Part shown: piece after piece, positions 579 to 14,979 of the stretch
Layout of the letters: each line of letters begins with the position of its first letter
How positions within the stretch are numbered: the stretch's first letter is position 1
Assembly: GCF_023161965.1 (NCBI RefSeq)
Contig: NZ_JALNTY010000002.1
Coordinates: 1 to 46,017, forward strand
Source of the DNA: Anaerosoma tenue
Lineage (GTDB): Bacteria; Actinomycetota; Coriobacteriia; Anaerosomatales; Anaerosomataceae
Direction: 5' to 3'
Length of the DNA: 46,017 nucleotides
The notes under the pieces: model-generated
Database searches by the model: none
Told to the model about the DNA's origin: nothing
Seen by the model: only the letters and a program-made list of their open reading frames with translations
Translations under genes and position numbers: made by a program

Positions 579-1997
579 ATGGATAACTATTGGCCGGAGG
601 ATAGTGACAGTGGCCCGGATGCCCCCCAGGGAGTGACAGTGACCTCAGACGAACCACGCAGGGAGCGCCCACTGGCAGCATCGGACGTCGAGCGCATCAT
701 CGCGGTCGTCTCGCGCAACGACGTGCGCCATGCGCTTCTCCGCTCCACCGCCACGCCCGTACCGATGGAATCCCTCAGCGACCTTCCGCTGCCCGAGGGG
801 CTCACCCACGAGCAGACGCTCGACCTTCTCACCGCTCTGCAGCGGCTTGCCGCGATCTACTCGCCGATACCTGACCGCGAAGGACGTATGCACTGGTTCG
901 TGCAGACCCACCGGATCAGGCGGTCGCTCAGCACGATCGACCAGCACTGCACCACCTACTCACAGCTCTACGAACGTGTGATCAGCAGATCAGGCGCACG
1001 CTTCGTGGTGCAGTCGAACGTCGACGAGACCGTCGCGACCGCGCGGCTCGATGGCGTTGATGTGGACTACGAGACCGCCAAAGACCTCCTGCTCATGCGT
1101 CGACAGCCCCGAACGATCGAGGAGCGGCTGGTGGTCAACCACTACCGCCTCTCCGAGGAGCTCCAGGGGCTCGTGGACAGGCCCTGGACGCTCGCGACGC
1201 TGATCGACCTCTACGGCCAGCTCACCTACGGAATCCCCTCGCACCTCACCAGGACGCCCAGCGGTGTGGACAGGAGCACCGAAGACGCAGTGGTGCGCGG
1301 GCTGTGCTCCTACGCCAACGCCGCGCACCTGCAGAGCTGCACCCATCCTGCCGTCGTCGCTCTGATCATCCGCGCCGTCACGGCCTACTGGGACCTCTTC
1401 CCCGCATGGAACGGAATGATGTCGCGTATCCTGTTCCGCTTCGCGGCGCTCAAGACCGGATATCCCGTGCTCGGCTATCTGCCCATCTCGCGCTCGGAGC
1501 TGATGCTTCAGGAGGCCGCGGGGCCGCGGCCGACCGCCGCTGTCCCGGGACCCCCCGTGCTCGATTCCTGGCAGGAGACCAACTCCACGCCGTGGCTGGA
1601 CACCCAGCTCAGTCTCGTGGTGCATGCGCTGCACCAGCTTGGCTCCCGAATGGAGCGCGCCGCCGCCATCGACGAAGCCGTACAGCGCGAGTTGCGCGAG
1701 GACGAGACGCTCAACCACCGGCAGCGCTCGATCATCGGTCGGGCGCTCCGTATCCCCGACGCCACGTTCCGCATCGGCTACCACCGCAGCACCCACGGTA
1801 TCGGCTACGCGACGGCCCACCGCGATTTCGCAGAGCTCGTGGACAAGGGGTATCTGACCGAGTCGTTCGAAGGGCGCATGAAGGTCTTCCGTGCCGGCCC
1901 GGAGCTCGAACACCGCGTGGGTGCTCTCCAGGACGTCGGGCGCGAAGAGGACCATGAGATCCCCTTGCCGCCCGAGTTCGGCCTCGGCGGGCAGTGA
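579..1997 (+). CDS. Fic-domain-like protein with degenerate active site and C-terminal winged helix
   Basis: A 472-residue protein with Fic family layout: a helical N-terminal half, a Fic-like core around residues 250-300, and a C-terminal winged helix (about 395-450, with the pattern GIGYATAHRDFAELVDKGYL) as in many Fic transcription-linked proteins. The core signature normally reads HPFx(D/E)GNGRxxR. Here residues 272-283 read DLFPAWNGMMSR, so the catalytic His and the metal-binding acid are gone while F, N, G and the last R remain. AMP transfer is therefore unlikely, and a DNA-binding or scaffold role is inferred. The start is uncertain: the ATG at 579 has no clear ribosome-binding site, whereas a GTG about 20 codons in has AGGGAG in front. 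No operon partner is evident. Confidence 0.6.
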   Translation: MDNYWPEDSDSGPDAPQGVTVTSDEPRRERPLAASDVERIIAVVSRNDVRHALLRSTATPVPMESLSDLPLPEGLTHEQTLDLLTALQRLAAIYSPIPDREGRMHWFVQTHRIRRSLSTIDQHCTTYSQLYERVISRSGARFVVQSNVDETVATARLDGVDVDYETAKDLLLMRRQPRTIEERLVVNHYRLSEELQGLVDRPWTLATLIDLYGQLTYGIPSHLTRTPSGVDRSTEDAVVRGLCSYANAAHLQSCTHPAVVALIIRAVTAYWDLFPAWNGMMSRILFRFAALKTGYPVLGYLPISRSELMLQEAAGPRPTAAVPGPPVLDSWQETNSTPWLDTQLSLVVHALHQLGSRMERAAAIDEAVQRELREDETLNHRQRSIIGRALRIPDATFRIGYHRSTHGIGYATAHRDFAELVDKGYLTESFEGRMKVFRAGPELEHRVGALQDVGREEDHEIPLPPEFGLGGQ

Positions 1998-2037
1998 CAG
2001 GTCGCATCTGCCGGATCACACCTTTCACAACCTGTGC

Positions 2038-2048
2038 GTTGTATCAAC
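2038..2048. promoter_or_regulatory. Operator candidate for the XRE-MNT/HepT operon
   Basis: GTTGTATCAAC is an inverted repeat (GTTG-N3-CAAC) 25 bp before the antitoxin start codon, and a further GTTGTA half-site lies at 2059-2064. The downstream protein carries an XRE-type DNA-binding domain, so autoregulation is a natural inference. Confidence 0.4.
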
Positions 2049-2073
2049 TACTTCTGTGTTGTACCATCGCTCC

Positions 2074-2634
2074 ATGACACGACCGCTCGACATCGGCCCC
2101 GCCCTGATCGCCGCCCGCCATGCGGCGGGCATGCCGCAGCGCGAACTCGGCAGCGCCATCGGCGTGGCACAGCAGCAGATCGCGCGCTGGGAGACCTCGG
2201 GCTACCGAAATGCGTCGCTCGAGCGGGTGGACGCCGTTGCCGAGGCGTTGGGGTATGCGGCCGCGAAACTGCCGATTGCCGCCGAGGCACAGGCAACCTA
2301 CGCGGTCAGCGCTCTCACGCCCGCGGTCACACCGGTCCATGACCTCGGCGAGATCGCGGCTCGAGTCCGCGCGCACGGGCGGGAGCTGAGGGAGCGCTTC
2401 GGCATCGTGCGCATCGGTGTCTTCGGCAGTTTCGCGTACGGAGAGCAGACCGACACGAGCGATGTGGACCTGCTAGTGGAGATGCCCAGGCCGGGAGGGT
2501 TCCTCTTCGTGGAGGCGGCGCAGTACATAGAGGATCTGCTCGGCAGAGATGTAGACTTCATCGAACCACACGCCCTGCACCCGCGGATGCACGATCGCGT
2601 TCTCCGGGAGGCAGTCTATGTCTGGTCCGCGTGA
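2074..2634 (+). CDS. XRE-helix-turn-helix/MNT nucleotidyltransferase fusion antitoxin (MntA-like)
   Basis: A 186-residue protein. Residues 8-65 form an XRE/Cro helix-turn-helix (AAGMPQRELGSAIGVAQQQI region). Residues about 95-186 form a minimal nucleotidyltransferase with the defining GSx10DxD motif (G118, S119, D130, D132). MntA-type antitoxins neutralise the HepT RNase by adding AMP units to its tyrosine. The partner gene overlaps the 3' end by 17 bp, so the two form a type VII toxin-antitoxin operon. Most MntA proteins are only the MNT domain of about 100-140 residues; here an operator-binding domain is fused in front. ATG at 2074 was chosen because it lies after the operator-like dyad and begins the HTH domain. 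Confidence 0.85.
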   Translation: MTRPLDIGPALIAARHAAGMPQRELGSAIGVAQQQIARWETSGYRNASLERVDAVAEALGYAAAKLPIAAEAQATYAVSALTPAVTPVHDLGEIAARVRAHGRELRERFGIVRIGVFGSFAYGEQTDTSDVDLLVEMPRPGGFLFVEAAQYIEDLLGRDVDFIEPHALHPRMHDRVLREAVYVWSA

Positions 2635-3001
2635 CGAGTCGATCATCCTCGAGAGCCTGGTCGACGCCGCCAGTCGCCTCATCGACCTTGGCCGTGACGT
2701 GCCGCGTGATCACATCGGTGACGACCGCGACGATCGTGAGCGCATCCTCTGGAACCTCGTGGTCCTGGGTGAGTCATCCAAGCGGCTCTCGATCAAGGTA
2801 CGAAGCCGCTTCGCGGATGTGCCTTGGAGCGAGATGGCCCGCACACGCGACGTCGTGGCGCACCATTATGATGGCATCATCTGGCCCCGCGTAGCCGAGA
2901 TCATCCAGGACCGACTACCGTCGCTCCTGCCGCAACTGGCCTCGATTCGCGACACGGTGCGCGCCGAATTCGACGCGGCCGAAGCCGCGCGCGACCGGTA
3001 G
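2618..3001 (+). CDS. hepT: HepT-like HEPN ribonuclease toxin
   Basis: A 127-residue all-helical HEPN protein of the DUF86/HepT family. The catalytic signature Rx4HxY is intact (R77, H82, Y84, in the run RDVVAHHYDG). In the family the R and H cleave RNA, and the tyrosine is the residue AMPylated by the MntA partner. The ATG at 2618 has a good GGGAGG site six bases upstream inside the antitoxin gene, and the two reading frames overlap by 17 bp, indicating coupled translation. It ends eight bases from the convergent oraE gene. Intact catalytic residues suggest an active toxin. Confidence 0.88.
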   Translation: MSGPRDESIILESLVDAASRLIDLGRDVPRDHIGDDRDDRERILWNLVVLGESSKRLSIKVRSRFADVPWSEMARTRDVVAHHYDGIIWPRVAEIIQDRLPSLLPQLASIRDTVRAEFDAAEAARDR

Positions 3002-3009
3002 CGCGTCAA

Positions 3010-5334
3010 CTACATCCCACGCGCGCGCATAGTCTTCACGATGAAGCTCGCCACATCGAGACCCTTGGTCTTTCGGCCGAACCCTGCGTCCATCCCGCTC
3101 TCACGGGCGATCTCGTCGGTCACCTGCGTGCCGCCCGAGATGAACAAGAGCCTGTCACGCACGCCCTTCTCCTCGGCGAGCGCGGAGAGCTTGCGCATCA
3201 TCTCGCGATGCACGTCGGCGTGGGTGATGATCGTTGAGATGAGCACCACGCTCGCCGCGTGCTCGATGGCGGCGTCGAGCACCTTGTCGATCGGCACGCT
3301 CGTGCCCAGGTAGGTCACGGAAAAGCCCCATTTCTCAAGGCCACCGTGCTTGATGTCGATGATCTCGCGCATACCCACCGAGTGCTCGTCGTTGCCCACG
3401 GTGGCGGCCACGCAGCGCAGATTCCGCTCGTGCACGAAGTCGCGGATCTCCTCGTCGGTCAGCACGTCCGGCGGCTCCGGGATCACGAGCGTCGTGGGGT
3501 CGATCGCCACGGCGAGCCGGCCCTTCAGCTCGATGAGCGTGCCCTCGGCAGGATGCATCACGCGCTTGTGGATGACCTCGCAGTCGGTGAGGTTCATCGC
3601 CGAGCCGAGCTCAAGGGCCGCCGCCTCCGCCACCTGTTCGCCGGCGGGCAGGAACATCGTGACCACGACCACGCCGTCGCCCGACCACTCCACCTCGGGG
3701 GCGATAAGGTCCTTGCTGCGGGCTTCTGCGGTCTGCATAAGCCGCGTGGCCGCGTTGTCTTCGGGGTCGAGCTCGTCGATGAACGGCACCTTGGTGTCGT
3801 CGCAGAGCGTACACCCGCCCACCACCGCACAGGGTGCGTCTGCCGGATCGGCGCCGTACTCCGCCAGCAGCTCGAGGTGGTTGTGGCCGAAGTGGTGACA
3901 GACCGGCGCGAGGTAGTCGTCCGCGCGCGGGACGATCGAACCCGCGGCAACACCACCCTGACTGTCACGGCCGATGCCGTCATCGTTGGTCTCGGGATAC
4001 TCGCCGCTGTCCACGAAGTACGCCTTCTCCACGCCCGCGAAGTAGCCGCCGTCCTCGAGCATCGCCTCGAGGAAGAGCACCGCCCGCTCCTTGATCTCGC
4101 GGACGCGCGCCTTGAGCTCCGGCGACTCGCGGTCGATACGCACCATCTCGCGCAGACCGTCCATGCCCACCAGCGACTGCTTGGCGGTGTCCACTGCTGC
4201 CACGTTGTTGTAGTGCCACGGGACGTTCCGGCCCTCGTCGGGGGTTATCGTGGATTGGATATCCGCCGAGGTGAGCCGGGACACGAGCAGGTTCATCACG
4301 TGGCTGACTGTTGCGTCCCGGCCGTCGCTCTCCATATACCGGGTGTTCTGCTGCGCCCGCATCTTGAAGCGGCCGAAGAGATCCCGGAGCGCGACCGCAT
4401 ACGGGAGATCCATGCGCATGCACGGCGCCGGCGCCGCGTCCGGCGGCACGGTGGAGAGTGCGATATGGTCAGCCGGCATGCCCACCGTCTCCGAGAACGC
4501 GCAGTTGATGGCATGCTGCACCAGAAGCTCGGGCATCACCTTCCACGCCTTGATCGCCGTGGCGTTCGCGTTGTGCGCGCCGTCGATCTGCAGGATGCCC
4601 GCCGCTGCCATCACCTGCTTGGCCACAGCGGCGTCCACGAACGACCGGTACATGTTGATGTTGCGGTAGAGCACGTTGTACTGCGGGTCCTGGTGAGCGC
4701 CGTTCACGCCCTCCTCGGCGAACATCACCGCGATCTCCGGACCGGCCACGCCGCTCACGTACGAGTGGAAGTTGATGGGGCGTCCGACCTCGTCCTCGAT
4801 CAGGTCGAGCGCGCGTCGCGACAGGCGCACCTGCTTGCGTGTGACGGCGATGCCTCCCACGCCCTCCGGCGTGCCCTCGATGAGGCCGTCCATGTGGCTC
4901 TGTCCGGCGGTGCGGATCACCATGATATGGTCGGCGCCATGCCAGGCGGCCATGCGCATACGGCGGATGTCGTCTTCAGGGCGGCCCGAGGCGATCTCTG
5001 TCGTTATCACGCAGTCGGGCTGCGGATCGATCTCCTCGAAGTAGTGGGCCGCCGGAAGCGGCACGCTGCGTTTCACCGGCTCGGAGGTCTCGTGGTAGGT
5101 GAACTCATAGGCGCGCTGATCGGGCACCTGCCTGCGCCACGTCCAGCCACGGCGCCGGGGCCGGTATCCCTTAAGGCCCTTGAGCAGCGCCTCTACGTCG
5201 AGCTTCTCGCACGGGTCTAGCGGCGGGTCGGCAAGCGGACCACCGAAGCAGGGGCCGGATGTCCGCTTGCCGGGTCCCGCACTATCGGATGGAGATGCCG
5301 GCGGACGGTCCGGCGCGCCCGGGTGAACGCTCAT
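3010..5334 (-). CDS. oraE: D-ornithine 4,5-aminomutase, large subunit (adenosylcobalamin/PLP)
   Basis: A 774-residue protein matching OraE. A TIM-barrel-like catalytic part comes first, followed by a C-terminal Rossmann cobalamin-binding domain. In the latter the base-off signature DxHxxG is present as DEHSVG with H651. K662 lies exactly 11 residues after that histidine, the spacing of the PLP-binding lysine of OraE. The enzyme moves the terminal amino group of D-ornithine to C4, giving 2,4-diaminopentanoate. The ATG at 5334-5332 overlaps the oraS stop as ATGA, showing translational coupling. Longer N-terminal extensions are possible in this frame but overlap oraS. The protein acts in the cytoplasm as an OraS-OraE heterotetramer. 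It feeds Ord, OrtA and OrtB, which are encoded 5-8 kb away on the same strand. Confidence 0.95.
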   Translation of the reverse strand: MSVHPGAPDRPPASPSDSAGPGKRTSGPCFGGPLADPPLDPCEKLDVEALLKGLKGYRPRRRGWTWRRQVPDQRAYEFTYHETSEPVKRSVPLPAAHYFEEIDPQPDCVITTEIASGRPEDDIRRMRMAAWHGADHIMVIRTAGQSHMDGLIEGTPEGVGGIAVTRKQVRLSRRALDLIEDEVGRPINFHSYVSGVAGPEIAVMFAEEGVNGAHQDPQYNVLYRNINMYRSFVDAAVAKQVMAAAGILQIDGAHNANATAIKAWKVMPELLVQHAINCAFSETVGMPADHIALSTVPPDAAPAPCMRMDLPYAVALRDLFGRFKMRAQQNTRYMESDGRDATVSHVMNLLVSRLTSADIQSTITPDEGRNVPWHYNNVAAVDTAKQSLVGMDGLREMVRIDRESPELKARVREIKERAVLFLEAMLEDGGYFAGVEKAYFVDSGEYPETNDDGIGRDSQGGVAAGSIVPRADDYLAPVCHHFGHNHLELLAEYGADPADAPCAVVGGCTLCDDTKVPFIDELDPEDNAATRLMQTAEARSKDLIAPEVEWSGDGVVVVTMFLPAGEQVAEAAALELGSAMNLTDCEVIHKRVMHPAEGTLIELKGRLAVAIDPTTLVIPEPPDVLTDEEIRDFVHERNLRCVAATVGNDEHSVGMREIIDIKHGGLEKWGFSVTYLGTSVPIDKVLDAAIEHAASVVLISTIITHADVHREMMRKLSALAEEKGVRDRLLFISGGTQVTDEIARESGMDAGFGRKTKGLDVASFIVKTMRARGM

Positions 5335-5693
5335 CGCACGCCACCCCATCTCGCCTGAGCGATCTCCCATCCTTCTCCTCTGGCGAGCCGGGCCGCCGCT
5401 TCCGGCGCCCCCACCCCCCATTCGCGCATGGCCACGAGCACAACGTGTCCCGCCCCGTGCCCGAGCAACCCGCGCGTCTCACATTCGGCAACCACGGCCT
5501 TGCAGGTAAGGGAATCGATGCCCATGCGCATGAGCACGCTTCGCTCGATCGATGGGGAGGTGTGGGTGCGGGCGAGTTCCACGAGCGGATCGACACACCG
5601 CTGTGCGAGATCCCAGAAGCGCTGCTCGAGCGCTTGGTCGGACAGCTCCTCCAGATGCTTCCGAGACTCCGCGAACGTGTCCTCGCGCGCCAT
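5331..5693 (-). CDS. oraS: D-ornithine 4,5-aminomutase, small subunit
   Basis: A 120-residue protein of OraS size and sequence, with the run ERSVLMRMGIDSL at residues 50-62 and GLLGHGAGHVV at about 75-85, both typical of the family. It forms the aminomutase with OraE, the next gene, whose start overlaps the oraS stop. A strong site GGGGAGGGG lies just before the ATG. In clostridial ornithine operons oraS directly follows ortB. Here 4.7 kb of unrelated genes separates them, so oraS-oraE probably has its own promoter or depends on read-through from the thioredoxin genes upstream. Confidence 0.93.
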   Translation of the reverse strand: MAREDTFAESRKHLEELSDQALEQRFWDLAQRCVDPLVELARTHTSPSIERSVLMRMGIDSLTCKAVVAECETRGLLGHGAGHVVLVAMREWGVGAPEAAARLARGEGWEIAQARWGGVR

Positions 5694-5768: not shown

Positions 5769-6296
5769 CTACTCCACGTTCGCGTCGAGCTTGGCCCGGA
5801 GCTGCGTCTCGTCCAACGGGCCGACGTATGTCTCGATGACATCACCCGCGCCGGACACGAAGACGGATGTGGGGATGTACCGCGTTTGATACCGGTCGAG
5901 CACCGGAGCTGCTAAGGGATCGGTGGTGAGAGCGTCCACGTAGACCACCCGGCCGACGTACTCGGGCATCACCCTCGCGGCGACCGCCGCGATCTCGATA
6001 CACGAGGCTCAAGTGTCCGAGTGGATGAGCACGTAGGCGGGAGTGCCGGATGCGAGAGCGTCCTCGAGTGCCGCAGCGGGATCTCCCGCATCGATCTGCC
6101 CGGGAGCAGGCCCGGGGTCGCCGGAGGCGCCACCGCTCAGCAGGTAGACGAGCACGGCAACGAGCGCGAGAGAGAGCAGTGCGAGCGACGCCACCGCCAA
6201 ACGCCCGCCCGGCGCGCCGCCCGCTGCATCGTCGCCCGATGGAACCTCACTGCGTTCGTGCGCGCCGGTGCCGCTCCCCACGCTAAGCGCCCGCAC
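5769..6296 (-). CDS. Membrane-anchored thioredoxin-fold protein with in-frame UGA (UxxC), probable selenoprotein
   Basis: One frame runs from 6296 to 5769 with a single in-frame TGA (6011-6009, codon 96). The upstream part has a membrane anchor (residues about 32-55) and a linker, then the strand AYVLIHSDT. The downstream part continues without a break as ASCIEIAAVAARVMPEY, with a cis-proline motif (YIPTSVFVSG) and the last strands and helix of a thioredoxin fold. In the corresponding membrane-bound thioredoxin family the first active-site cysteine sits exactly at the TGA, so the motif is UASC in place of CxxC. A hairpin suited to a SECIS lies 17 bases after the TGA. Read as selenocysteine, the product is 175 residues; read as a stop, the active site is lost. 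The start is uncertain: GTG at 6296 overlaps the preceding gene by 14 bp, with no strong ribosome-binding site. A CxxC glutaredoxin-like gene precedes it, and oraS follows. Confidence 0.82.
5976..5991 (-). promoter_or_regulatory. SECIS-like hairpin downstream of the UGA codon
   Basis: On the transcribed strand CGCGGC-GGUC-GCCGCG forms a perfect six-base-pair stem with a GGUC loop (or a seven-pair stem), beginning 17 bases after the TGA at 6011-6009. Bacterial SECIS elements lie in the coding sequence shortly after UGA and carry G near the start of the apical loop. The E. coli fdhF element also has GGUC in its loop. GC-rich DNA forms hairpins easily, so this is supporting evidence only. Confidence 0.5.
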
Positions 6297-6525
6297 GCTC
6301 GAGGATCGATTTCACCTCGGCCATCTTGGGGAGCCTCCCCGCAAGCCGTACCTCGCCGTCAACCACGAGGCCCGGCGTGGACATGATCCCGTACTCCATG
6401 ATGTCGGTGAGTTCGGTCACCTTCACCACCGTGGCGTCCAGACTCATCTCATCCACGGCCTCCCGGACCACCTTCTCCAGCTGCTTGCACTTAGCGCATC
6501 CGGTACCGAGGATCTTGATCTCCAT
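6283..6525 (-). CDS. Small CxxC thioredoxin/glutaredoxin-like protein (redox-active disulfide protein 2 family)
   Basis: An 80-residue cytoplasmic thioredoxin-fold protein starting MEIKILGTGCAKCKQLEKV, with the CAKC redox pair at residues 10-13 and a cis-proline motif MSTPGLVVDGEV. It matches the TM0996/MTH895 group of minimal glutaredoxin-like proteins, often found beside ArsR regulators and ArsP-type permeases. GGAGAGGCGGG precedes the ATG. It lies between arsR and the membrane-anchored thioredoxin in the same leftward run. Passing reducing equivalents to the anchored partner is an inference from context. Confidence 0.85.
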   Translation of the reverse strand: MEIKILGTGCAKCKQLEKVVREAVDEMSLDATVVKVTELTDIMEYGIMSTPGLVVDGEVRLAGRLPKMAEVKSILERAGA

Positions 6526-6558: not shown

Positions 6559-6879
6559 TCAGAATCCTTCAATCGCCGCAGCCACGGCGGCGAGCACGTC
6601 GCGTTGAACCGTGTAGTAAACCCATGTGCCATCCTTGCGCGCGGTCACCAGACCGGCGTCTTTCAAGGCCGACATGTGATGCGACACGGTAGATGCCGCC
6701 AGGCCAAGATGCTCCGACAGCTTGCAGGCGCAGACCTCGTCCGTGGCGCAGCAGGTCTTGCCCTCTTCCGACGTCCGCTGCAGCAGGAAGCGCACGATCT
6801 CACGACGCTGAGCTGAGGCGAGCGCCTTGAGCGCGGCGTCAAGCCGATCCTCAGAGAGCCGCTCAGCAGCAGCCTGCAT
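6559..6879 (-). CDS. arsR: ArsR/SmtB-family metalloregulator, cysteine-rich
   Basis: A 106-residue winged-helix repressor of ArsR type with the recognition helix region LSEHLGLAASTVSHHMSAL and the wing KDGTWVYYTV. Four cysteines in the segment TCCATDEVCACK just before the recognition helix resemble the thiolate sites that sense arsenite or related soft metalloids. The ATG at 6879 is preceded by an excellent GAGGAGGA site and lies within the end of the preceding gene (17-bp overlap); a longer start at 6918 is less likely. It probably represses its own leftward operon and the divergent permease through the inverted repeats at 7752-7797. Confidence 0.88.
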   Translation of the reverse strand: MQAAAERLSEDRLDAALKALASAQRREIVRFLLQRTSEEGKTCCATDEVCACKLSEHLGLAASTVSHHMSALKDAGLVTARKDGTWVYYTVQRDVLAAVAAAIEGF

Positions 6880-7174
6880 GATCTCCTCCTCCGAGGACCG
6901 CTTGCACCACCGCATCAAGATCGACGCCAGCGTGGCATACGACCTCGCTATCCACCATCACCATGGGAAACGACGTCTGCTCCGCGATCAGCAGGTCGAC
7001 CACACGCGTGCGCTCAGCCGCTGGCAAAGCGTAGACGTCGCAGTCGGTCACGCGCCCGGGCAGACCTTGTGCCGCGAGCGCGGCCTCGAGGGCATGGACA
7101 CGCCACGCCGTGGGCATGTCTCAAGCGGAACCCTCGGGCCCCACGAACTCGACCTCCGAACCGGGGTCGCACAT
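6863..7174 (-). CDS. Small thioredoxin-fold protein with in-frame UGA, candidate selenoprotein
   Basis: Starting at the ATG 7174-7172 (GAGGCGG ten bases upstream) the frame reads 17 codons, a TGA (7123-7121, codon 18), then 85 more codons to 6863. The 17 residues include the strand SEVEFVGPEGSA. After the TGA come helix 1 (TAWRVHALEAALAAQG), the cis-proline strand TSFPMVMVDSEVVCHAG and a final helix, together a complete minimal thioredoxin fold. If translation began at the ATG after the TGA (7117), the first strand and the active-site residue would be missing. The TGA falls at the N-terminus of helix 1, where the redox cysteine belongs, so selenocysteine is the simplest reading. A stem-loop with GG in its loop follows directly (7120-7097). 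It overlaps arsR and follows the DUF2703 gene in the same frame. A stop plus a separate short gene remains possible. Confidence 0.6.
7097..7120 (-). promoter_or_regulatory. Second SECIS-like stem-loop after the TGA at 7123-7121
   Basis: On the transcribed strand GACAUG pairs with CGUGUC, followed by a one-base bulge and four further pairs closing a GGC loop. It begins directly after the TGA, slightly nearer than most known bacterial SECIS elements. It supports, but does not prove, selenocysteine insertion. Confidence 0.3.
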
Positions 7175-7186
7175 CAGGTCGCCGCC

Positions 7187-7735
7187 TCAACCACATCCCG
7201 GGCCGGTGACGAGCGTGACCGTGGGCGGAGCAGGCGTGCAGCACGTCGAGGCGGGATCGGCAGGTCTCGACGAAGCCTCCGCAGCGCGATCTTCGCGCGA
7301 GGACAGCGAGGAGAGGCCCGCCGATCCCGCCTCGCCTGCGAGCCCTGCGGCGGCCATGATGGCGTCGAAGACCACGTCACGGCCCACGGCCTCGGTCCGT
7401 ACGCCGCCGACCTCGATCTCGCGGCAGCAGACCGATTCCCCGACCAGATCGCTGCATGACGGACAGTCGCTCATCATGCTCACGCCGCCGAGCCACTCCT
7501 CGGCCGGACGTCCGTTCACCAGCACCCGGTTGGAGTCGTCGAGACGGCCGGAGGTCAACTCGCACTCAAGATAGTCGATCACCGCCACCGACGAGGGCAG
7601 CGCGGCTCGCGCGTCGGAAACGGCCGCACGCACGGCATCGTGAGTGTCCCCGCAACGGTCACAGGTGTTCCCGTCGACGGTGAGATAGTCGAACTCCACG
7701 ACGATGCGCGCCGGTCCGCTGCAGCAACCACTCAT
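7187..7735 (-). CDS. DUF2703-containing cysteine-rich protein
   Basis: A 182-residue protein starting MSGCCSG, with the DUF2703 core at residues about 10-120: a CDRCGDTHDAV motif, a strand VIDYLECELTSG, and the pairs CPSC and CC. A low-complexity tail ends in TVTLVTGPGCG. The domain has a thioredoxin-like look and often occurs near arsenic genes; its reaction is unknown. GGAGAGG seven bases upstream fixes the start at 7735. It is the first gene of the leftward operon, transcribed divergently from the permease. Its stop (TGA, 7189-7187) is in the same frame as the following thioredoxin-like gene. The residues around it (GPGCG before, GGDLMC after) leave open whether this TGA is also read through. 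Confidence 0.75.
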   Translation of the reverse strand: MSGCCSGPARIVVEFDYLTVDGNTCDRCGDTHDAVRAAVSDARAALPSSVAVIDYLECELTSGRLDDSNRVLVNGRPAEEWLGGVSMMSDCPSCSDLVGESVCCREIEVGGVRTEAVGRDVVFDAIMAAAGLAGEAGSAGLSSLSSREDRAAEASSRPADPASTCCTPAPPTVTLVTGPGCG

Positions 7736-7751: not shown

Positions 7752-7797
7752 TTCGACAAGCATCCGGACGATGCCTATACTTCGATACTTGTCGAAG
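7752..7797. promoter_or_regulatory. ArsR-type operator between divergent DUF2703/arsR operon and permease
   Basis: Three half-sites are visible: TTCGACAAG (7752-7760), CTTCGA (7780-7785) and TCGAAG (7792-7797). The last two form the dyad CTTCGA-N6-TCGAAG. The first pairs as an inverted repeat with CTTGTCGAA at 7788-7796. Location between divergent genes with arsR in one arm supports shared repression. Confidence 0.55.
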
Positions 7798-7868: not shown

Positions 7869-8885
7869 ATGGACCTGATCACCGGTGTGTTCGCGTGGAT
7901 GAACGATCAGCTTCTCAAGATGGTGTGGCTGAACGACCTCGTAGGTGCGTTCGTGTCCGACGTCCTGGGTCTCCCGCTGGGTGAGCGTCTCGGCGCCAGC
8001 ATCCAGTTCTTCCTGTACGACACGGTCAAGATCTTCGTGCTGCTCTCGGCGCTCATCTTCGCCATCTCGTACGTACAGAGTTACTTCCCGCCCGAGCGTA
8101 CGAAGCGGATCCTCGGGCGCTTCAACGGGATCTGGGGCAACGTCCTCGGCGCGCTGCTCGGCACCATCACGCCGTTCTGCTCCTGCTCCTCCATCCCGTT
8201 GTTCATCGGCTTCACCTCGGCCGGTCTCCCGCTCGGGGTCACCTTCTCGTTCCTGATCTCGTCCCCGCTCGTCGACCTGGCCTCGGTCATCCTGCTCGCC
8301 AGCATCTTCAACTGGCGGATCGCGATCGCCTACGTGGTGGTGGGACTCGTATTGGCGGTCGCGGGTGGCTCGATCATCAGTGCCCTCAAGCTCGAGCGCT
8401 ACGTCGAGCCATTCGTCTACGGCACCCATCTTGCCGACGCCGACCTGCCCGAGATGACCCGGCGCGACCGCATCGCGTTCGCGTGGCAGGCGGTGGCCGA
8501 CATCGTGAAGCGTGTGTGGCCCTACGTTCTGGCCGGCGTAGGTATCGGAGCGGTGATCCACGGCTGGATACCCGAGACGTGGGTCTCTGCCGTGCTCGGT
8601 ACGGCCAACCCGTTCTCGCCGGTGATCGCCACGATCGTGGGCGTGCCGATGTACGCCGACATCTTCGGAACGCTGCCGATAGCCGAGGCGCTGGTGGCCA
8701 AGGGCGTGGGCCTCGGCACCGTGCTCGCCTTCATGATGGCGGTCACGGCGCTCTCGCTGCCCTCGCTCGTGATGCTCAAGAAGGTCGTGAAGACGCCGCT
8801 GCTTGCCACTTTCTTCGGCCTCGTAGTCACCGGCATCCTGATCATCGGCTACGGCTTCAATGCGGTCGGCGCCTGGTTCGTCTAG
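7869..8885 (+). CDS. ArsP/DUF318-family permease
   Basis: A 338-residue integral membrane protein with about eight hydrophobic helices and the family signature GTITPFCSCSSIPLF at residues about 98-112, a cysteine-rich loop inside the membrane. The family includes ArsP, an exporter of trivalent organoarsenicals, but many members have no tested substrate. The ATG at 7869 follows GGAG, after a long leader containing the operator repeats. The divergent partners (metalloregulator, thioredoxin-like proteins) suggest that the substrate is a thiol-reactive metalloid or organometal. Substrate identity is inferred from context. Confidence 0.85.
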   Translation: MDLITGVFAWMNDQLLKMVWLNDLVGAFVSDVLGLPLGERLGASIQFFLYDTVKIFVLLSALIFAISYVQSYFPPERTKRILGRFNGIWGNVLGALLGTITPFCSCSSIPLFIGFTSAGLPLGVTFSFLISSPLVDLASVILLASIFNWRIAIAYVVVGLVLAVAGGSIISALKLERYVEPFVYGTHLADADLPEMTRRDRIAFAWQAVADIVKRVWPYVLAGVGIGAVIHGWIPETWVSAVLGTANPFSPVIATIVGVPMYADIFGTLPIAEALVAKGVGLGTVLAFMMAVTALSLPSLVMLKKVVKTPLLATFFGLVVTGILIIGYGFNAVGAWFV

Positions 8886-8916
8886 CAGCCGCCGTTGACG
8901 CGTGTCAGGGGGCGCA

Positions 8917-8948
8917 GATACACTTCTGGTGTATCCATCTGGTGTATC
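8917..8948. promoter_or_regulatory. Operator candidate of the RHH/PIN toxin-antitoxin operon
   Basis: GATACAC-TTCTG-GTGTATC (8917-8935) is a perfect seven-base inverted repeat, and a third GTGTATC follows at 8942-8948, just before the ribosome-binding site. Ribbon-helix-helix antitoxins typically bind such arrays to repress their own operon. Confidence 0.6.
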
Positions 8949-8963
8949 TGCGAGGTGATCGGC

Positions 8964-9257
8964 ATGGCGGTCTACAAGGTGAACGTGTCACTGCCTGAAG
9001 AGCTGGTGAGCGAGATTGATGAGGCCGCCGGCGACCTTGGAATGAGCCGCAGCGGTTTCATCGCCGAAGCGAGTTCCCGCTATGTCTCTGACATCAAGAA
9101 CCTGTCAACCGAGGAGCGTCGAAGCAAGGACATACAGCGGGCGCTCGCCGGCTTCGCGCGCATCGGGTCGAAGCTGACAGAACGGGATATCCAGGACCTG
9201 ATCGACCACACCCGCCGGGACAGGGAGCGCGACACACCCGGGGGGTGGCGACGGTGA
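8964..9257 (+). CDS. Ribbon-helix-helix antitoxin (VapB-like)
   Basis: A 97-residue protein with an N-terminal ribbon-helix-helix fold: strand YKVNVSLPEEL, helix VSEIDEAAGDLG, turn MSRSGFIAEASSRYV. An acidic-basic C-terminal tail would wrap the toxin. The ATG at 8964 has an almost complete anti-16S match (GAGGTGATC) directly upstream. Its stop overlaps the PIN gene start (GTGA at 9254-9257), which is characteristic of toxin-antitoxin pairs. The dyad array just upstream suggests autoregulation. Confidence 0.88.
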   Translation: MAVYKVNVSLPEELVSEIDEAAGDLGMSRSGFIAEASSRYVSDIKNLSTEERRSKDIQRALAGFARIGSKLTERDIQDLIDHTRRDRERDTPGGWRR

Positions 9258-9670
9258 GCGGAGCGATCGTCGTCGATTCCTCCATTGCATTCAAGTGGCT
9301 GTCCGCCCTCGGCGAGAACCGCGTCGACCTCGCGGTCGATCTGCTGCACCGGCACCTGACTGGCGAGACGATACTCATCGCGCCCGCCAGTCTGCCCTGG
9401 GAGGTGGCAAACGCCCTCAGATGGAAGAGGCGTATTCCATCCTCGGAGGTCATCGAGCTAATCGGTCATCTCGAAGCGATCCAGATCCACCTGATGGATG
9501 TGACCTACTCGCGCGTGCGGTCGGCTGCCGAACTCGCGTACAGCCATGGCCTCAGTGTCTATGATGCGCTCTTCCTCGACCTCGCCACGGAATTCGATTG
9601 CCCGCTCGTGACGGCGGACTACCGCGCCTTCGCCGACGTTGATACCTCGGTGGAGATTCGGCTTCTGTAG
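9254..9670 (+). CDS. PIN-domain ribonuclease toxin (VapC-like)
   Basis: A 138-residue PIN domain protein. The four acidic metal-binding positions are present: D8 (IVVDSS), E50 (LPWEVANAL), D104 (YDALFLDLA) and D122 (TADYRAF). PIN toxins cut tRNA or rRNA using Mg2+; the target here is unknown. The GTG start at 9254 was chosen because it overlaps the antitoxin stop; another GTG lies nine bases earlier. The pair sits inside the block that separates ortB from oraS. Confidence 0.88.
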   Translation: MSGAIVVDSSIAFKWLSALGENRVDLAVDLLHRHLTGETILIAPASLPWEVANALRWKRRIPSSEVIELIGHLEAIQIHLMDVTYSRVRSAAELAYSHGLSVYDALFLDLATEFDCPLVTADYRAFADVDTSVEIRLL

Positions 9671-10377: not shown

Positions 10378-11790
10378 CTACCCCGCACGCAACTCGGCTA
10401 TCGCCTCCTCGACCGCCACCGGTGTGGTGTTGGTGTCCTCGGCAAGGAAGACGATGTCGCCAGGAGTGGGTTCGTATCCTTCGGGGGCATGCCTGAGAGC
10501 GTTGCGGATGTACGATCGCCGCATCCGCACCAGGTCGAGGTCCTTGGCGCGTATCTGCTCCGGGCGCTCGGGTATCACGATCGCCGTGCCCGGCACGTTG
10601 TCGGCCGGATCGCCCTTCCGCACCTCCACGCCCTGCTCGCGCGCGAACGCCAGTTGCGACCAGTGATGCTTCCCGGCGCCGGTGTACTCCGTCTCCTGCA
10701 CCACCACCGTCGCGTCACGCGGCAGCTCGCGCGCCAGCGACATCGCTGCCGCCATCGCAGTGTTGCCGCTCGGCCCACGCTCCAGCCCTTCGAGCTTGGA
10801 GAGCGCCTCGGTCACATAGAAGACCTCGCCCTGGGTGACGGTGAGATAGCGGTCCATGTAGCGGAGCGACCGCGCAGCGTTGCGGGGCACGTCGGAGCGG
10901 TCGGGCCAGGTCGCGAACGGCACCCCAAAGCCCGTATGCCCGGTGGTGAAGCTCTTGCGATTGAAGTCGGTGTCGCTGGCCATGTGGAGTCCCGAGAGGT
11001 CCACCGACGCGCTCACGACCTGGGTGTCGTGCGCGCCCATCCTGCGCAGTCCGCGCGCCGTGCCGGTGGTGTTGCCGCCGCCGGCGTGTGTGACGACCAC
11101 ATGCGTGGGCGGCGCGCCGGTGAGCCCGATCATCTCCTCGGCCAACTCGGCGCCGAGCGACTCGATCCCCGACACCCCGAAGGGCGAGTACAGCGACGCC
11201 GAGAGGAATCCCGTCTCATCGAGCAACTCGAGCATGTGGAAGAAGAGCTCCGGACCCACCGTCATCTGGACGACCTCGGCGCCGAACGCCTCGCAGATGC
11301 GCGACTTCTCAACGATCTCGGGCTGTCCGATGTGCCGCGAATCGAAGGCCTCCTGGCAGATGATGCACTTCAGCCCCGCCCGGGCCGCCTGGCTGGCCAC
11401 GGCGGCGCCATAGTTGCCCGAGGTGGCTGCGATGACCCCCGGGAATCCCTTCTCGGCTGCCACATGGATGCTCATGCTTGCCCTGCGGTCCTTGAACGAG
11501 CCCGCCATGTTGGCCGCCTCGTCCTTCACGAAGATCCGCGCCCCATGGCCGGGCTCTGCGTACGACCGCACGAGGTCGGTCATGTTGCGTAGCTCCAGGA
11601 GCGGCGTGAGACCCACGCCCGCCGCGCGCTGGATCCCGCGGATGTCCTCCAGCGTATAGCCGTGGGCCGACATCATGCCTTCGTAGTCGAAGGCGATCGG
11701 GCTCCGCTCGAACTCGGCGTAGTCCATGCCGAGGGCACGCTTCATGATCTCGCCCTTGCGGGCCATGACCTGCTCGTAGCGGGTGGGCAT
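10378..11790 (-). CDS. ortB: 2-amino-4-oxopentanoate thiolase, beta (PLP) subunit
   Basis: A 470-residue PLP enzyme of the threonine synthase-like fold II family, the size of clostridial OrtB. The PLP lysine is K100 in MAGSFKDRRA. The phosphate-binding loops include ATSGNYGAAV and HAGGGNTTGTARG. With OrtA it cleaves 2-amino-4-oxopentanoate with coenzyme A to acetyl-CoA and D-alanine, the last step of oxidative ornithine fermentation. The ATG at 11790 lies one base after the ortA stop (TGAGATG), so the two are translationally coupled. Alternative upstream starts would run through ortA and are rejected. Confidence 0.95.
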   Translation of the reverse strand: MPTRYEQVMARKGEIMKRALGMDYAEFERSPIAFDYEGMMSAHGYTLEDIRGIQRAAGVGLTPLLELRNMTDLVRSYAEPGHGARIFVKDEAANMAGSFKDRRASMSIHVAAEKGFPGVIAATSGNYGAAVASQAARAGLKCIICQEAFDSRHIGQPEIVEKSRICEAFGAEVVQMTVGPELFFHMLELLDETGFLSASLYSPFGVSGIESLGAELAEEMIGLTGAPPTHVVVTHAGGGNTTGTARGLRRMGAHDTQVVSASVDLSGLHMASDTDFNRKSFTTGHTGFGVPFATWPDRSDVPRNAARSLRYMDRYLTVTQGEVFYVTEALSKLEGLERGPSGNTAMAAAMSLARELPRDATVVVQETEYTGAGKHHWSQLAFAREQGVEVRKGDPADNVPGTAIVIPERPEQIRAKDLDLVRMRRSYIRNALRHAPEGYEPTPGDIVFLAEDTNTTPVAVEEAIAELRAG

Positions 11791-11791
11791 C

Positions 11792-12130
11792 TCACTCACC
11801 CGCTTCCGGGTCCGCGAGCGCACGGTACTCGGCCACCCTGGCGCGGGCGTCACGGCCGATGGCCACGATCTCCGCCGGAGGAGTGCCGAAGGTGTGGGTG
11901 TACCCCGGCTCGATCTCCGAGAGGTGTCCGCGCACCACGCGGCCCGCCATCGTCTCCACATCCACCTCGTCGCCGATGAACGCGGGGCCGCGGGCGAACC
12001 CTTTCACCCACGCCCGCAGCGGCTGAGCGGCGGTGTCATCCGGAATCCCGGCCGCGCGCTGGCCCGGCTCAAGGAGCACGTACTCCACTTCCACCCAGTC
12101 ATCGGCATCGCATCGGATCGCGTCGCCCAT
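11792..12130 (-). CDS. ortA: 2-amino-4-oxopentanoate thiolase, alpha subunit
   Basis: A 112-residue protein of OrtA size, with an all-beta character and typical pieces such as VEVEYVLLEPGQRA (about residues 13-26), KGFARG and VETMAGRVVRGHL. OrtA is the small partner needed for OrtB thiolase activity. The gene starts ten bases after the ord stop and ends one base before the ortB start, in the order ord-ortA-ortB known from ornithine-fermenting clostridia. Assignment rests on both sequence and this synteny. Confidence 0.92.
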   Translation of the reverse strand: MGDAIRCDADDWVEVEYVLLEPGQRAAGIPDDTAAQPLRAWVKGFARGPAFIGDEVDVETMAGRVVRGHLSEIEPGYTHTFGTPPAEIVAIGRDARARVAEYRALADPEAGE

Positions 12131-12140
12131 CTCGCACTCC

Positions 12141-13151
12141 CTATTCGCTCGGCGTCCAGAACCGCGGGATCGGAAGATCGGTCACTGTGAGTATGCCCGC
12201 CGGCGCGTCGACGATCAGTGGGATGTAGTTGCCCGTCGACGCGTACGTACCCTTGCCGCCGGGGATCTCGGGCTTGTTCGACATGTGCACCTCCGGGTCC
12301 CCGACGATGCGGATGTAGTCGCCCGTCTCCACTCCCTCGAGCTCGGGATGTATCTGCTGCGGGTGCACGAGCTCGATCTTGAGCTCGCCGTTGCTGTAGC
12401 CCCGCCCGATGTGACGGCAGCCGCACACGTCGCCGGGAGCGACCTTCACGTGCGGAGTCTCCCGCGGCACCGATGTGACGATCGGCTCGCGCGTCTCAAC
12501 GACCTCGTCGATCTCCCAGCCGAGCGCATCGGCGATGAGCCCGATGGACTCGGGGAACCCGATATGGCCGACGATCGTGCCGTCGGCGACGCCCCGCTCG
12601 AACTCCTCCACGGTGGTGCCCACGCCCTGGCTCTGCATGACGGTGGGGCCGAACGGCGAGAGGTCGTTCACGCGCTCGGCCTCGATGCGATCGATCCGCA
12701 GGCAGATGGAGCTCCACGCCACGACGAGGGCGTCCAGGATGAAACCGGGATTGATACCGGTGCCGAGGATGGAGACATCGTGCTCCATCGCGAGCTCCTC
12801 GAAGCTATCCGCCCAGTCGGCATCGCTCGCCCACGGGTACGCCAGCTTCTCGGCGATACAGAGGACGTTCGCCCCGGCTTTCACGCACGCCTCGACCTGG
12901 TCGGAGACCTCGTGGAGGTTGCTTTGCGTGCAGATGCAGACCACGTCCGGCTCCTTGGCCAGCACGGACTGGGCATCGGTCGTCATGCACACGTCACAGG
13001 TCCGGCCGAGCAGCTCCCCCACGGGTCTGCCTTCTTTGGCCGGGTTGGTGACGATCGCCCCGACCAGCTCCACATCGTTGGGACGGTCAAGGATGAAGCC
13101 GAGCAGCCCCTGTCCCATCATGCCGGTGCCCCACACCGCGACCTTGATCAT
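12141..13151 (-). CDS. ord: 2,4-diaminopentanoate dehydrogenase
   Basis: A 336-residue NAD(P)-dependent dehydrogenase with an N-terminal Rossmann motif GTGMMGQG at residues 8-15 and a dihydrodipicolinate-reductase-like C-terminal half. It oxidises and deaminates (2R,4S)-2,4-diaminopentanoate, the OraSE product, to 2-amino-4-oxopentanoate. GGGAGGAG precedes the ATG. It is the first gene of the ord-ortA-ortB run. An inverted repeat at 13184-13206 in its leader is a possible operator. No ornithine racemase gene is in the window. Confidence 0.95.
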   Translation of the reverse strand: MIKVAVWGTGMMGQGLLGFILDRPNDVELVGAIVTNPAKEGRPVGELLGRTCDVCMTTDAQSVLAKEPDVVCICTQSNLHEVSDQVEACVKAGANVLCIAEKLAYPWASDADWADSFEELAMEHDVSILGTGINPGFILDALVVAWSSICLRIDRIEAERVNDLSPFGPTVMQSQGVGTTVEEFERGVADGTIVGHIGFPESIGLIADALGWEIDEVVETREPIVTSVPRETPHVKVAPGDVCGCRHIGRGYSNGELKIELVHPQQIHPELEGVETGDYIRIVGDPEVHMSNKPEIPGGKGTYASTGNYIPLIVDAPAGILTVTDLPIPRFWTPSE

Positions 13152-13246: not shown

Positions 13247-14854
13247 TCACATCCCGGACAACACCGGGGCCGTAAGGTCCGCCGCCGATGGGATCGGGAA
13301 CGGTGTTGCCGACGTCTCCTCGCCCGGGTCCACGAAGATGTGACAGCTCGTGCACTCCACCTGCGTGAAGTCGGGACCGGGGTGGCAGCGCAGGCAGTAC
13401 TGGTTCAGCCACGGCCGCTCCTCGTGCACCCCGATCGCGGGGTGCGTGAAGTGGACCTCCGACCAGGTGGTGGGTCGATGGCAATCGAGACACGCGGTGG
13501 GACCCACGTGCGGGATGTCGGCGATGTGGCAACTCTCGCAGGCGCGCGGAGCGTCGTCGCTGAAGCGCAGCGTCGGGTGGCAGAGCGTGCAGGGCCGCTC
13601 CGAGTGGGCCGTGCCGAGCTTGATCTCCCCCGGATGCTCCTCGAGGATGATCGCCGACCAGCGCGAGGGCGTGTGACACATCTCGCAGTCGTTGTACTGC
13701 ACTCCGTGCGGACCGTCATGACAGCTGTCGCACGTGCCCGAGCCGTCCCCGATGTTGACCGCGTACTTGTAGTTGGGGTGGCACGCATTGCAGCTCAAGT
13801 CACCGTGGATGCCCACGAGCTCGAACCTCGTTGCGTGCACGAAGGTCGACGGCTTGAACCCGGCGGTCGTATGGCAGTCCTGGCACGCCGTCAGCCCGCC
13901 GTGCGCCGTTCCGTGGCACCCCGTGCACACGGTCGGTGTCCCATCGTAGACGCCCTGCGGGTGGCACGCCTGACAATCGAGCTTGGTGTGACCGCCGGTG
14001 ATCCTGAAGTAGGAATCGTGGTCGAACGTCGAGGGGACGAAGCCGAACGGCGTGTGGCAGTCCTCGCACCTCGTAAGGTTCGTGTGAGCAACGGTATGGC
14101 AGCCGAGACAGACCGTAGGCGTACCGGCGAAGGTGTTGTTCTTGTGGCAGTCGGCGCAGTCGGCCTGCGTATGCCTGCCTTCGAGCTTGAAGAAGAGCGA
14201 GTGGTCGAAGCCGGGAAGCGGCTCCCACCCGCGTGACGGCTCGTGACAGTCCTCGCAGTTCGTGAGTCCGCCATGGTTGACCCCGTGACAGTCCACGCAT
14301 CCGCGATCCGGCGCGCCGGGGTCCACACCCGCGGTGTGGCACTCGAAGCACGAGACGCCTTCGTGGCCACCCTCAAGGGAGAGGTGTCCTTCCGGGACCG
14401 CCCGCTGGAGCGACCACGCCACCGCCGTGTGACACGGAGCGCATGCAACCGCACCTACACCGTGCGGTGAACGGGCGGCGTGGCACGTCTCGCAGTCGGG
14501 TGATATCGGTTCCTCACCCTCGGTATGGCAGCGCTCGCAACCGATGATGGCGTGGAAGGAGACGTTGAAGTCGGGGTTGTCGTGCGTGTAGTGCGTCACG
14601 AGCCACGACGACGTGGTGTGACACGACTCGCATGCGTCGTCGTTGTACGGCGCTTCGTGAGCGTAGTCGTGCTGTGGAGCCTTGCATGAGGTGCACGGCT
14701 GCGACCCCACTGCGGGGTGCTCCTGAGCCTCGGCAGACCCGGGCTGGTAGTGCGCGTACTGCACCACGACGAGGCCCGCCACGATGGCGAGCAGCGCCAC
14801 CAGGATCAGAACCCCTGCAACGGCGGACGTGCGCTTCCTGGCCTGTGGTGTCAT
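13247..14854 (-). CDS. Multihaem c-type cytochrome (21 CxxCH plus one CxxCK)
   Basis: A 535-residue protein with one N-terminal membrane anchor (residues about 10-35) and then 21 CxxCH haem-binding motifs spread to the C-terminus. A single CTSCK comes first, before the first CxxCH. CxxCK is the motif of the catalytic haem in NrfA nitrite reductase, so a 22nd haem is conceivable if a suitable lyase exists. Many distal histidines occur between motifs, as expected for bis-His haems forming a wire. The ATG at 14854 is chosen because it places the anchor at the very N-terminus; a GTG at 14893 is possible. It would face the outside of the cell and carry electrons between membrane and surface. It lies next to ord but has no proven link to it. 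Confidence 0.9.
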   Translation of the reverse strand: MTPQARKRTSAVAGVLILVALLAIVAGLVVVQYAHYQPGSAEAQEHPAVGSQPCTSCKAPQHDYAHEAPYNDDACESCHTTSSWLVTHYTHDNPDFNVSFHAIIGCERCHTEGEEPISPDCETCHAARSPHGVGAVACAPCHTAVAWSLQRAVPEGHLSLEGGHEGVSCFECHTAGVDPGAPDRGCVDCHGVNHGGLTNCEDCHEPSRGWEPLPGFDHSLFFKLEGRHTQADCADCHKNNTFAGTPTVCLGCHTVAHTNLTRCEDCHTPFGFVPSTFDHDSYFRITGGHTKLDCQACHPQGVYDGTPTVCTGCHGTAHGGLTACQDCHTTAGFKPSTFVHATRFELVGIHGDLSCNACHPNYKYAVNIGDGSGTCDSCHDGPHGVQYNDCEMCHTPSRWSAIILEEHPGEIKLGTAHSERPCTLCHPTLRFSDDAPRACESCHIADIPHVGPTACLDCHRPTTWSEVHFTHPAIGVHEERPWLNQYCLRCHPGPDFTQVECTSCHIFVDPGEETSATPFPIPSAADLTAPVLSGM

Positions 14855-14979
14855 CGACCCTGCCGATCCATGTGCGAGAACCGCGCCCGACACCGGCTGG
14901 CATACGAGCGTGCATGCATACGACCACAGGCTGTATGGTACGCGAAATCAGGGGCGTTTGCAGGGGGCGCGCAGCGGTA

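Follow-up and report, generated by a model that had tools for sequence, protein, structure and literature searches.

The window examined here, a 46,017-nucleotide stretch of the Anaerosoma tenue genome (contig NZ_JALNTY010000002.1, positions 1 to 46,017), contains a thioredoxin gene interrupted by an in-frame TGA, and its product is almost certainly a selenoprotein in which UGA is recoded as selenocysteine (Sec), as judged by sequence comparison. The best explanation of the locus as a whole, to which we assign a probability of roughly 0.87, is a membrane-anchored Sec thioredoxin made by SECIS- and SelB-dependent recoding and engaged in metalloid-linked thiol chemistry at the cell surface. The thioredoxin family is known; what is new is the operon and its double-Sec partner. 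Coordinates of all features are given in Table 1.

Table 1. Features of the Sec thioredoxin locus, in window coordinates
Feature	Position	Strand	Details
Membrane-anchored selenocysteine thioredoxin, putative CDS	5769..6296	-	175 aa; Sec at 96; stop TAG 5771-5769
Bacterial SECIS hairpin, candidate	5975..5992	-	7 bp; loop GGTC 5985-5982; starts 16 nt after TGA
In-frame TGA, putative Sec	6009..6011	-	Codon 96; opens the U-A-S-C active site
Predicted transmembrane anchor	6138..6200	-	LAVASLALLSLALVAVLVYLL; read from sequence; hydrophobic residues about 33-53
MTH895/ArsE family thioredoxin-like protein	6283..6525	-	GTGCAKCKQ; TIGR00412 109.8 bits (cut-off 62); PF13192 99.6 bits
ArsR/SmtB family regulator	6559..6879	-	EVCACKL motif; NF033788 77.4 bits (cut-off 55)
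DUF2703 + small thioredoxin-fold domain, putative second selenoprotein	6863..7735	-	Two in-frame TGAs; C-terminus ...GCC
Second in-frame TGA of the DUF2703 gene	7121..7123	-	EGSA-U-DMP; TGA in window + 20 relatives, Cys in 5 others
First in-frame TGA of the DUF2703 gene	7187..7189	-	GPGCG-U-GG; TGA in 29/29 aligned members
Palindrome between divergent genes	7780..7797	-	CTTCGACAAGTATCGAAG; similar one at equivalent place in relatives
ArsP_1 family permease	7869..8885	+	Likely start ATG 7869; PF03773 216.6 bits (cut-off 32.3)

An in-frame TGA at the active site of a thioredoxin

On the minus strand, the frame 6296..5769 opens with a GTG and closes with a TAG; its only TGA, at 6011-6009, lies in the context HSDT-TGA-ASC, exactly as an earlier sequence-only reading of this DNA had described it. 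Translation may start at either of two in-frame GTG codons, one at 6296 and one at 6281. Translation with table 11 yields an ORF of 95 aa and another of 67 aa, which bears out the expectation that standard gene callers split the gene in two. The joined product matches Pfam PF00085 across the TGA (residues 85-171, E = 4e-4), with thioredoxin sequence on both sides of it, again in line with the sequence-only reading; the score of the single sequence is 20.7 bits, slightly below the curated cut-off of 23.5. The family profile (A4) retrieved PDB thioredoxins with E = 7.9e-19, and when the predicted model of the domain (pLDDT 93) is superimposed on E. coli thioredoxin, the TM-score is about 0.74. 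Both the active site, U96-A-S-C99, and the cis-Pro motif YIPT are present, and in alignment A2 both active-site columns and the Y, P and T of YIPT are invariant. The label "membrane thioredoxin" given earlier fits a protein with one hydrophobic segment followed by the thioredoxin domain, and we infer from this arrangement that the domain would lie outside the cytoplasm.

In a read-through search covering 199 related genomes, many proved to have the gene. Among orthologues in the same order, codon 96 is TGA in seven (the window included) and Cys in 31, with no other residue among those read. The three closest relatives (G020, G025 and G016; 53-58% identity) likewise carry TGA at codon 96, in the motifs UTSC, UASC and UVSC. 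More distant orthologues mostly have Cys (CPSC, CDPC, CQPC and others), the TGA exceptions being G056, G012 and G029. On the tree, the Sec and Cys labels require three changes, most deep forks being poorly resolved. Codon differences past the TGA in Sec orthologues are mostly at third positions. Since independent genomes carry the same TGA, a base-call error, which the sequence-only reading had raised as a possible objection, is excluded in practice. A scan of genome_contigs with the Sec thioredoxin found no relative. The genome that contains the window also holds two other UGA thioredoxins with a UPSC motif and a SECIS-type hairpin: one is lipoprotein-like (L052, G000:C3:59338-59733), and one is fused to a rhodanese (L053, G000:C2:357807-358205).

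A downstream hairpin that accompanies the TGA

A GGUC-loop hairpin had been placed 17 bases downstream of the TGA, which is right to within one base. Positions 5992-5986 pair with 5981-5975, corresponding to offsets 19-25 and 30-36 from the T of the TGA. All target-type Sec forms (7/7) have a hairpin with a GGTC loop at offsets 19-36, with 6-7 of the 7 pairs formed, and their base changes stay paired at offsets 21/34 and 22/33. For 17 Sec paralogues the hairpin lies three bases further on; its loop reads GGTCG in 13 of them and CGTGA or GGTCA in the rest, and compensatory changes at offsets 27/35 give GC, CG, TA and AT. In the 31 Cys orthologues the hairpin is not kept and pairing is worse (Mann-Whitney p = 2.5e-5, 7 vs 31; p = 3.5e-10 with the 17 Sec paralogues added, 24 vs 31), although these p values overstate the significance, because related sequences are not independent. 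When hairpin energy was compared with that of synonymous-codon shuffles, the mean z was -1.82 for Sec forms and +0.17 for Cys forms; the hairpin is therefore not dictated by the amino-acid sequence alone. Rfam reported only a tRNA-Met in the window, and the failure to match the SECIS is as expected, because bacterial SECIS elements are too variable for Rfam.

Selenocysteine machinery in the genome

The sequence-only reading had proposed looking for selA, selB, selC and selD. All four are present in the genome that contains the window (2.1 Mb, 99% complete), where selD (371.9 bits), selA (612 bits), selB (380 bits) and tRNA-Sec (72.5 bits) lie side by side in a 5-kb cluster (contig C4:155460-160440), all above the curated cut-offs. 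The selD gene carries an in-frame TGA of its own, in the motif AG-U-AAK, which is the known Sec position of SelD. Across the order, tRNA-Sec was found in 52/69 genomes. Neither selA, selB nor tRNA-Sec was found in the assemblies of three genomes with TGA forms (G016, G025 and G012), which are drafts with several UGA selenoprotein genes each. Because the sel genes of the window's genome all lie together in a single cluster, the simplest reading, not a proven one, is that they fall in a gap of these draft assemblies. As expected, the 99% complete genome G040, without selA, selB and tRNA-Sec, has a Cys form and no TGA match. The sel genes, the exchange of Cys and TGA and the Sec-only hairpin thus support the earlier claim that this UGA stands for selenocysteine.

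The operon and its conservation

The operon comprises, in this order, the genes for the DUF2703/double-Sec protein, ArsR, the ArsE-like protein and, at its end, the Sec thioredoxin, and the ArsP permease gene is divergent. The ArsE-like gene overlaps the start of the thioredoxin gene by 14 bases. The cysteine motif of the regulator stands where E. coli ArsR has ELCVCDL, which we take to be its arsenic-binding motif. A palindrome of the type CTTCGA-N6-TCGAAG occurs in the divergent gap of 5/5 loci (the window, L080, L081, L082 and L088), with no second copy within the window, and it is a probable ArsR operator. G020 and G025 share this gene order, G016 has most of it, and other relatives retain parts. 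For 8/9 relatives read, Sec and Cys forms alike, the thioredoxin gene adjoins the ArsE-like gene and is near ArsR and ArsP. In G004, G010 and G066, which have the Cys form, it is directly followed by a gene for a DsbD_TM membrane electron carrier, suggesting the electron source of the thioredoxin; in the window this partner is not adjacent to the Sec thioredoxin gene. DUF2703 is a thioredoxin-like family present in actinobacterial ars clusters (PMC6514093).

A putative second selenoprotein with two in-frame TGAs

The sequence-only reading did not mention two more Sec-type TGAs in the neighbouring upstream gene. The DUF2703 domain of this gene matches PF10865 with 89.7 bits (cut-off 23.6), and relatives conserve the stretch that lies between and past the two TGAs. 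The TGA at 6865-6863 was rejected as a further Sec codon: it is the stop of the DUF2703 gene and overlaps the arsR start. Some genomes have the double-TGA domain as a standalone gene of about 115 aa, in which the first ~13 residues, ahead of the first TGA, are likewise conserved. The domain was found in 31 of the 298 genomes of the class searched, most with exactly two TGAs, and no homologue was found outside the order, the other classes sampled included. No Cys form of the first TGA was found in the relatives searched. A scan of genome_contigs with the second selenoprotein returned one named locus, HGW-Actinobacteria-7. A SECIS has moderate support at the first TGA (mean z -1.25), and at the second there is no clear signal (mean z -0.76).

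The double-TGA domain matched no family in Pfam or NCBIfam, and none of its 29 members matched PF06953 (ArsD); nor did it show homology to the Sec thioredoxin. A review of 119 prokaryotic selenoprotein families and subfamilies includes none with DUF2703 or the double-TGA motif (PMC13188914), and the domain appears to be an unlisted double-selenocysteine family. Its AlphaFold model (pLDDT 79, poor near the Sec loops) shows strands and helices arranged in the order typical of thioredoxins. Among solved structures, SA0789 and ArsD come nearest, with modest scores. Against the ArsD-like fold, Foldseek gave a probability of 0.97-0.99 and a TM of 0.44-0.52, and the structural Z was 6.3-6.8, a range that may mean only a common arrangement. 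Profile comparison with ArsD gave a weak match (hhalign 42.7% over 29 columns), and the hits of profile A3 among PDB chains were discounted, since they look like chance.

Fusions of DUF2703 with ArsD have been reported (PMC3091736), and ArsD binds As(III) through Cys12, Cys13 and Cys18 (PMC12607644). The second selenoprotein resembles the arsenic metallochaperone ArsD (PF06953) in its predicted thioredoxin-like fold with soft ligands past the first strand, in its fusion with DUF2703 and in its location in an ars-type operon. Unlike the CC...C arrangement of ArsD, with its CC-x4-C metalloid site, the double-TGA domain has CGU...U, that is, CGUGG and a second Sec or Cys. Because the C-G-U sits in the region of the As(III)-binding cysteines of ArsD, a Sec-bearing metalloid chaperone is plausible by analogy, and we infer that the DUF2703 fusion protein would handle metalloids.

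Relation to known systems

Sec thioredoxins with a UxxC motif (Trx, PF00085) are a verified selenoprotein family (Table 1 of PMC13188914) and have been counted in seven genomes (PMC1794560). The sequence-only reading had not noted that this family is already verified. Because UxxC Sec thioredoxins are established, the thioredoxin itself is a further member of a known family, and it shares with the others the thioredoxin fold, UxxC, a SECIS hairpin just past the UGA and Cys homologues. Unlike them, it is membrane-anchored, is located in an ArsR-type operon and belongs to the class Coriobacteriia, and its motif is U-A-S-C in contrast to their G-P type. It also resembles SaoT (NF040730) of the Sao organometal system, a UxxC thioredoxin-like selenoprotein near an ArsP/SaoE-type permease. 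Identity with SaoT or the Sao system was rejected: no NF040730 match was present among the NCBIfam matches up to E = 10, and the permease scored 97 bits as SaoE, far below the cut-off of 325.

Alternative explanations and proposed mechanism

If the TGA were a real stop, the locus would be either a pseudogene in decay or a pair of separate short ORFs. The 95-aa and 67-aa ORFs given by standard callers agree with this, and DNA alone cannot prove readthrough; however, distinct genera, whose orthologues are 53-58% identical, share the TGA and have no further stop, the hairpin at a fixed distance is kept only alongside the TGA, codon changes after the TGA are mostly at third positions and the genome has a complete Sec machinery, so that we consider a real stop highly improbable. 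Readthrough of the UGA as another amino acid, by a near-cognate tRNA or a general reassignment of TGA, is extremely improbable. TGA is an ordinary stop elsewhere in the window, for instance at the end of the DUF2703 gene where it overlaps arsR; only Cys substitutes at codon 96 in homologues; and tRNA-Sec (72.5 bits) and selABD are in the genome.

Under Sec recoding, SelB and Sec-tRNA would read the UGA, aided by the SECIS hairpin 16 bases downstream, a step whose basis is comparative. If the protein follows the thioredoxin mechanism, the selenolate at residue 96 would attack either a disulfide or a metalloid that is bound, with Cys99 then resolving the intermediate. Judging by the neighbouring genes, this thiol chemistry at the cell surface is most likely linked to the export of arsenic or a similar soft metalloid. 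On reasoned grounds, a role of the Sec thioredoxin in metalloid chemistry is fairly probable. The genes recognised in the operon include neither an arsenate reductase nor an arsenite pump, so that a metalloid as the substrate is a guess from ArsR, ArsP, ArsE and DUF2703. It is also possible, at rather less than even odds, that the protein is a general extracytoplasmic thiol reductase, acting for example in cytochrome c maturation or envelope repair, with the metalloid neighbours incidental. The family is close to general thioredoxins, the Cys orthologues adjoin a DsbD_TM carrier, and a gene for a CxxCH-rich multihaem protein (13247-14893) is 5 kb away, all of which would suit such a reductase; the adjacency to the ArsE-like gene and the presence of ArsR and ArsP nearby in 8/9 relatives, in Sec and Cys forms, argue against it. 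A more specific proposal within the metalloid reading, which we put forward tentatively, is that the operon is a selenium-based metalloid system, in which the DUF2703 fusion would be an ArsD-like chaperone whose two Sec residues bind a soft metal or metalloid and the Sec thioredoxin would be its partner at the membrane.

With the Sec thioredoxin, a known selenoprotein family gains a member that is membrane-anchored and operon-linked, and the close relatives of this protein provide a clean natural comparison, in which Sec and Cys replace each other as the SECIS hairpin is gained or lost. Taken together, the two selenoproteins suggest a use of selenium in metalloid defence by an order of anaerobic actinobacteria. 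If the reading as a selenium-based metalloid system is true, the DUF2703 fusion would represent a new double-selenocysteine protein family, overlooked by annotation because table 11 callers cut each gene at its UGAs.

Neighbouring genes

Genes for D-ornithine 4,5-aminomutase (OraS and OraE) and for what look like further ornithine degradation enzymes flank the metalloid operon (3010-5693 and 10378-13151, both on the minus strand), and OraS and OraE hold the same place in several relatives. Adjoining the permease at 8895-9670 (+), a small ribbon-helix-helix-like gene is followed by one for a PIN-domain protein (PF01850), a probable toxin-antitoxin pair. At 1891-3001 (+), helix-turn-helix/nucleotidyltransferase-like and HEPN-like ORFs stand in a row and, from their translations, have the look of a toxin-antitoxin system. 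The product of 13247-14893 (-), of 548 aa and with many CxxCH motifs, is likely a multihaem cytochrome.
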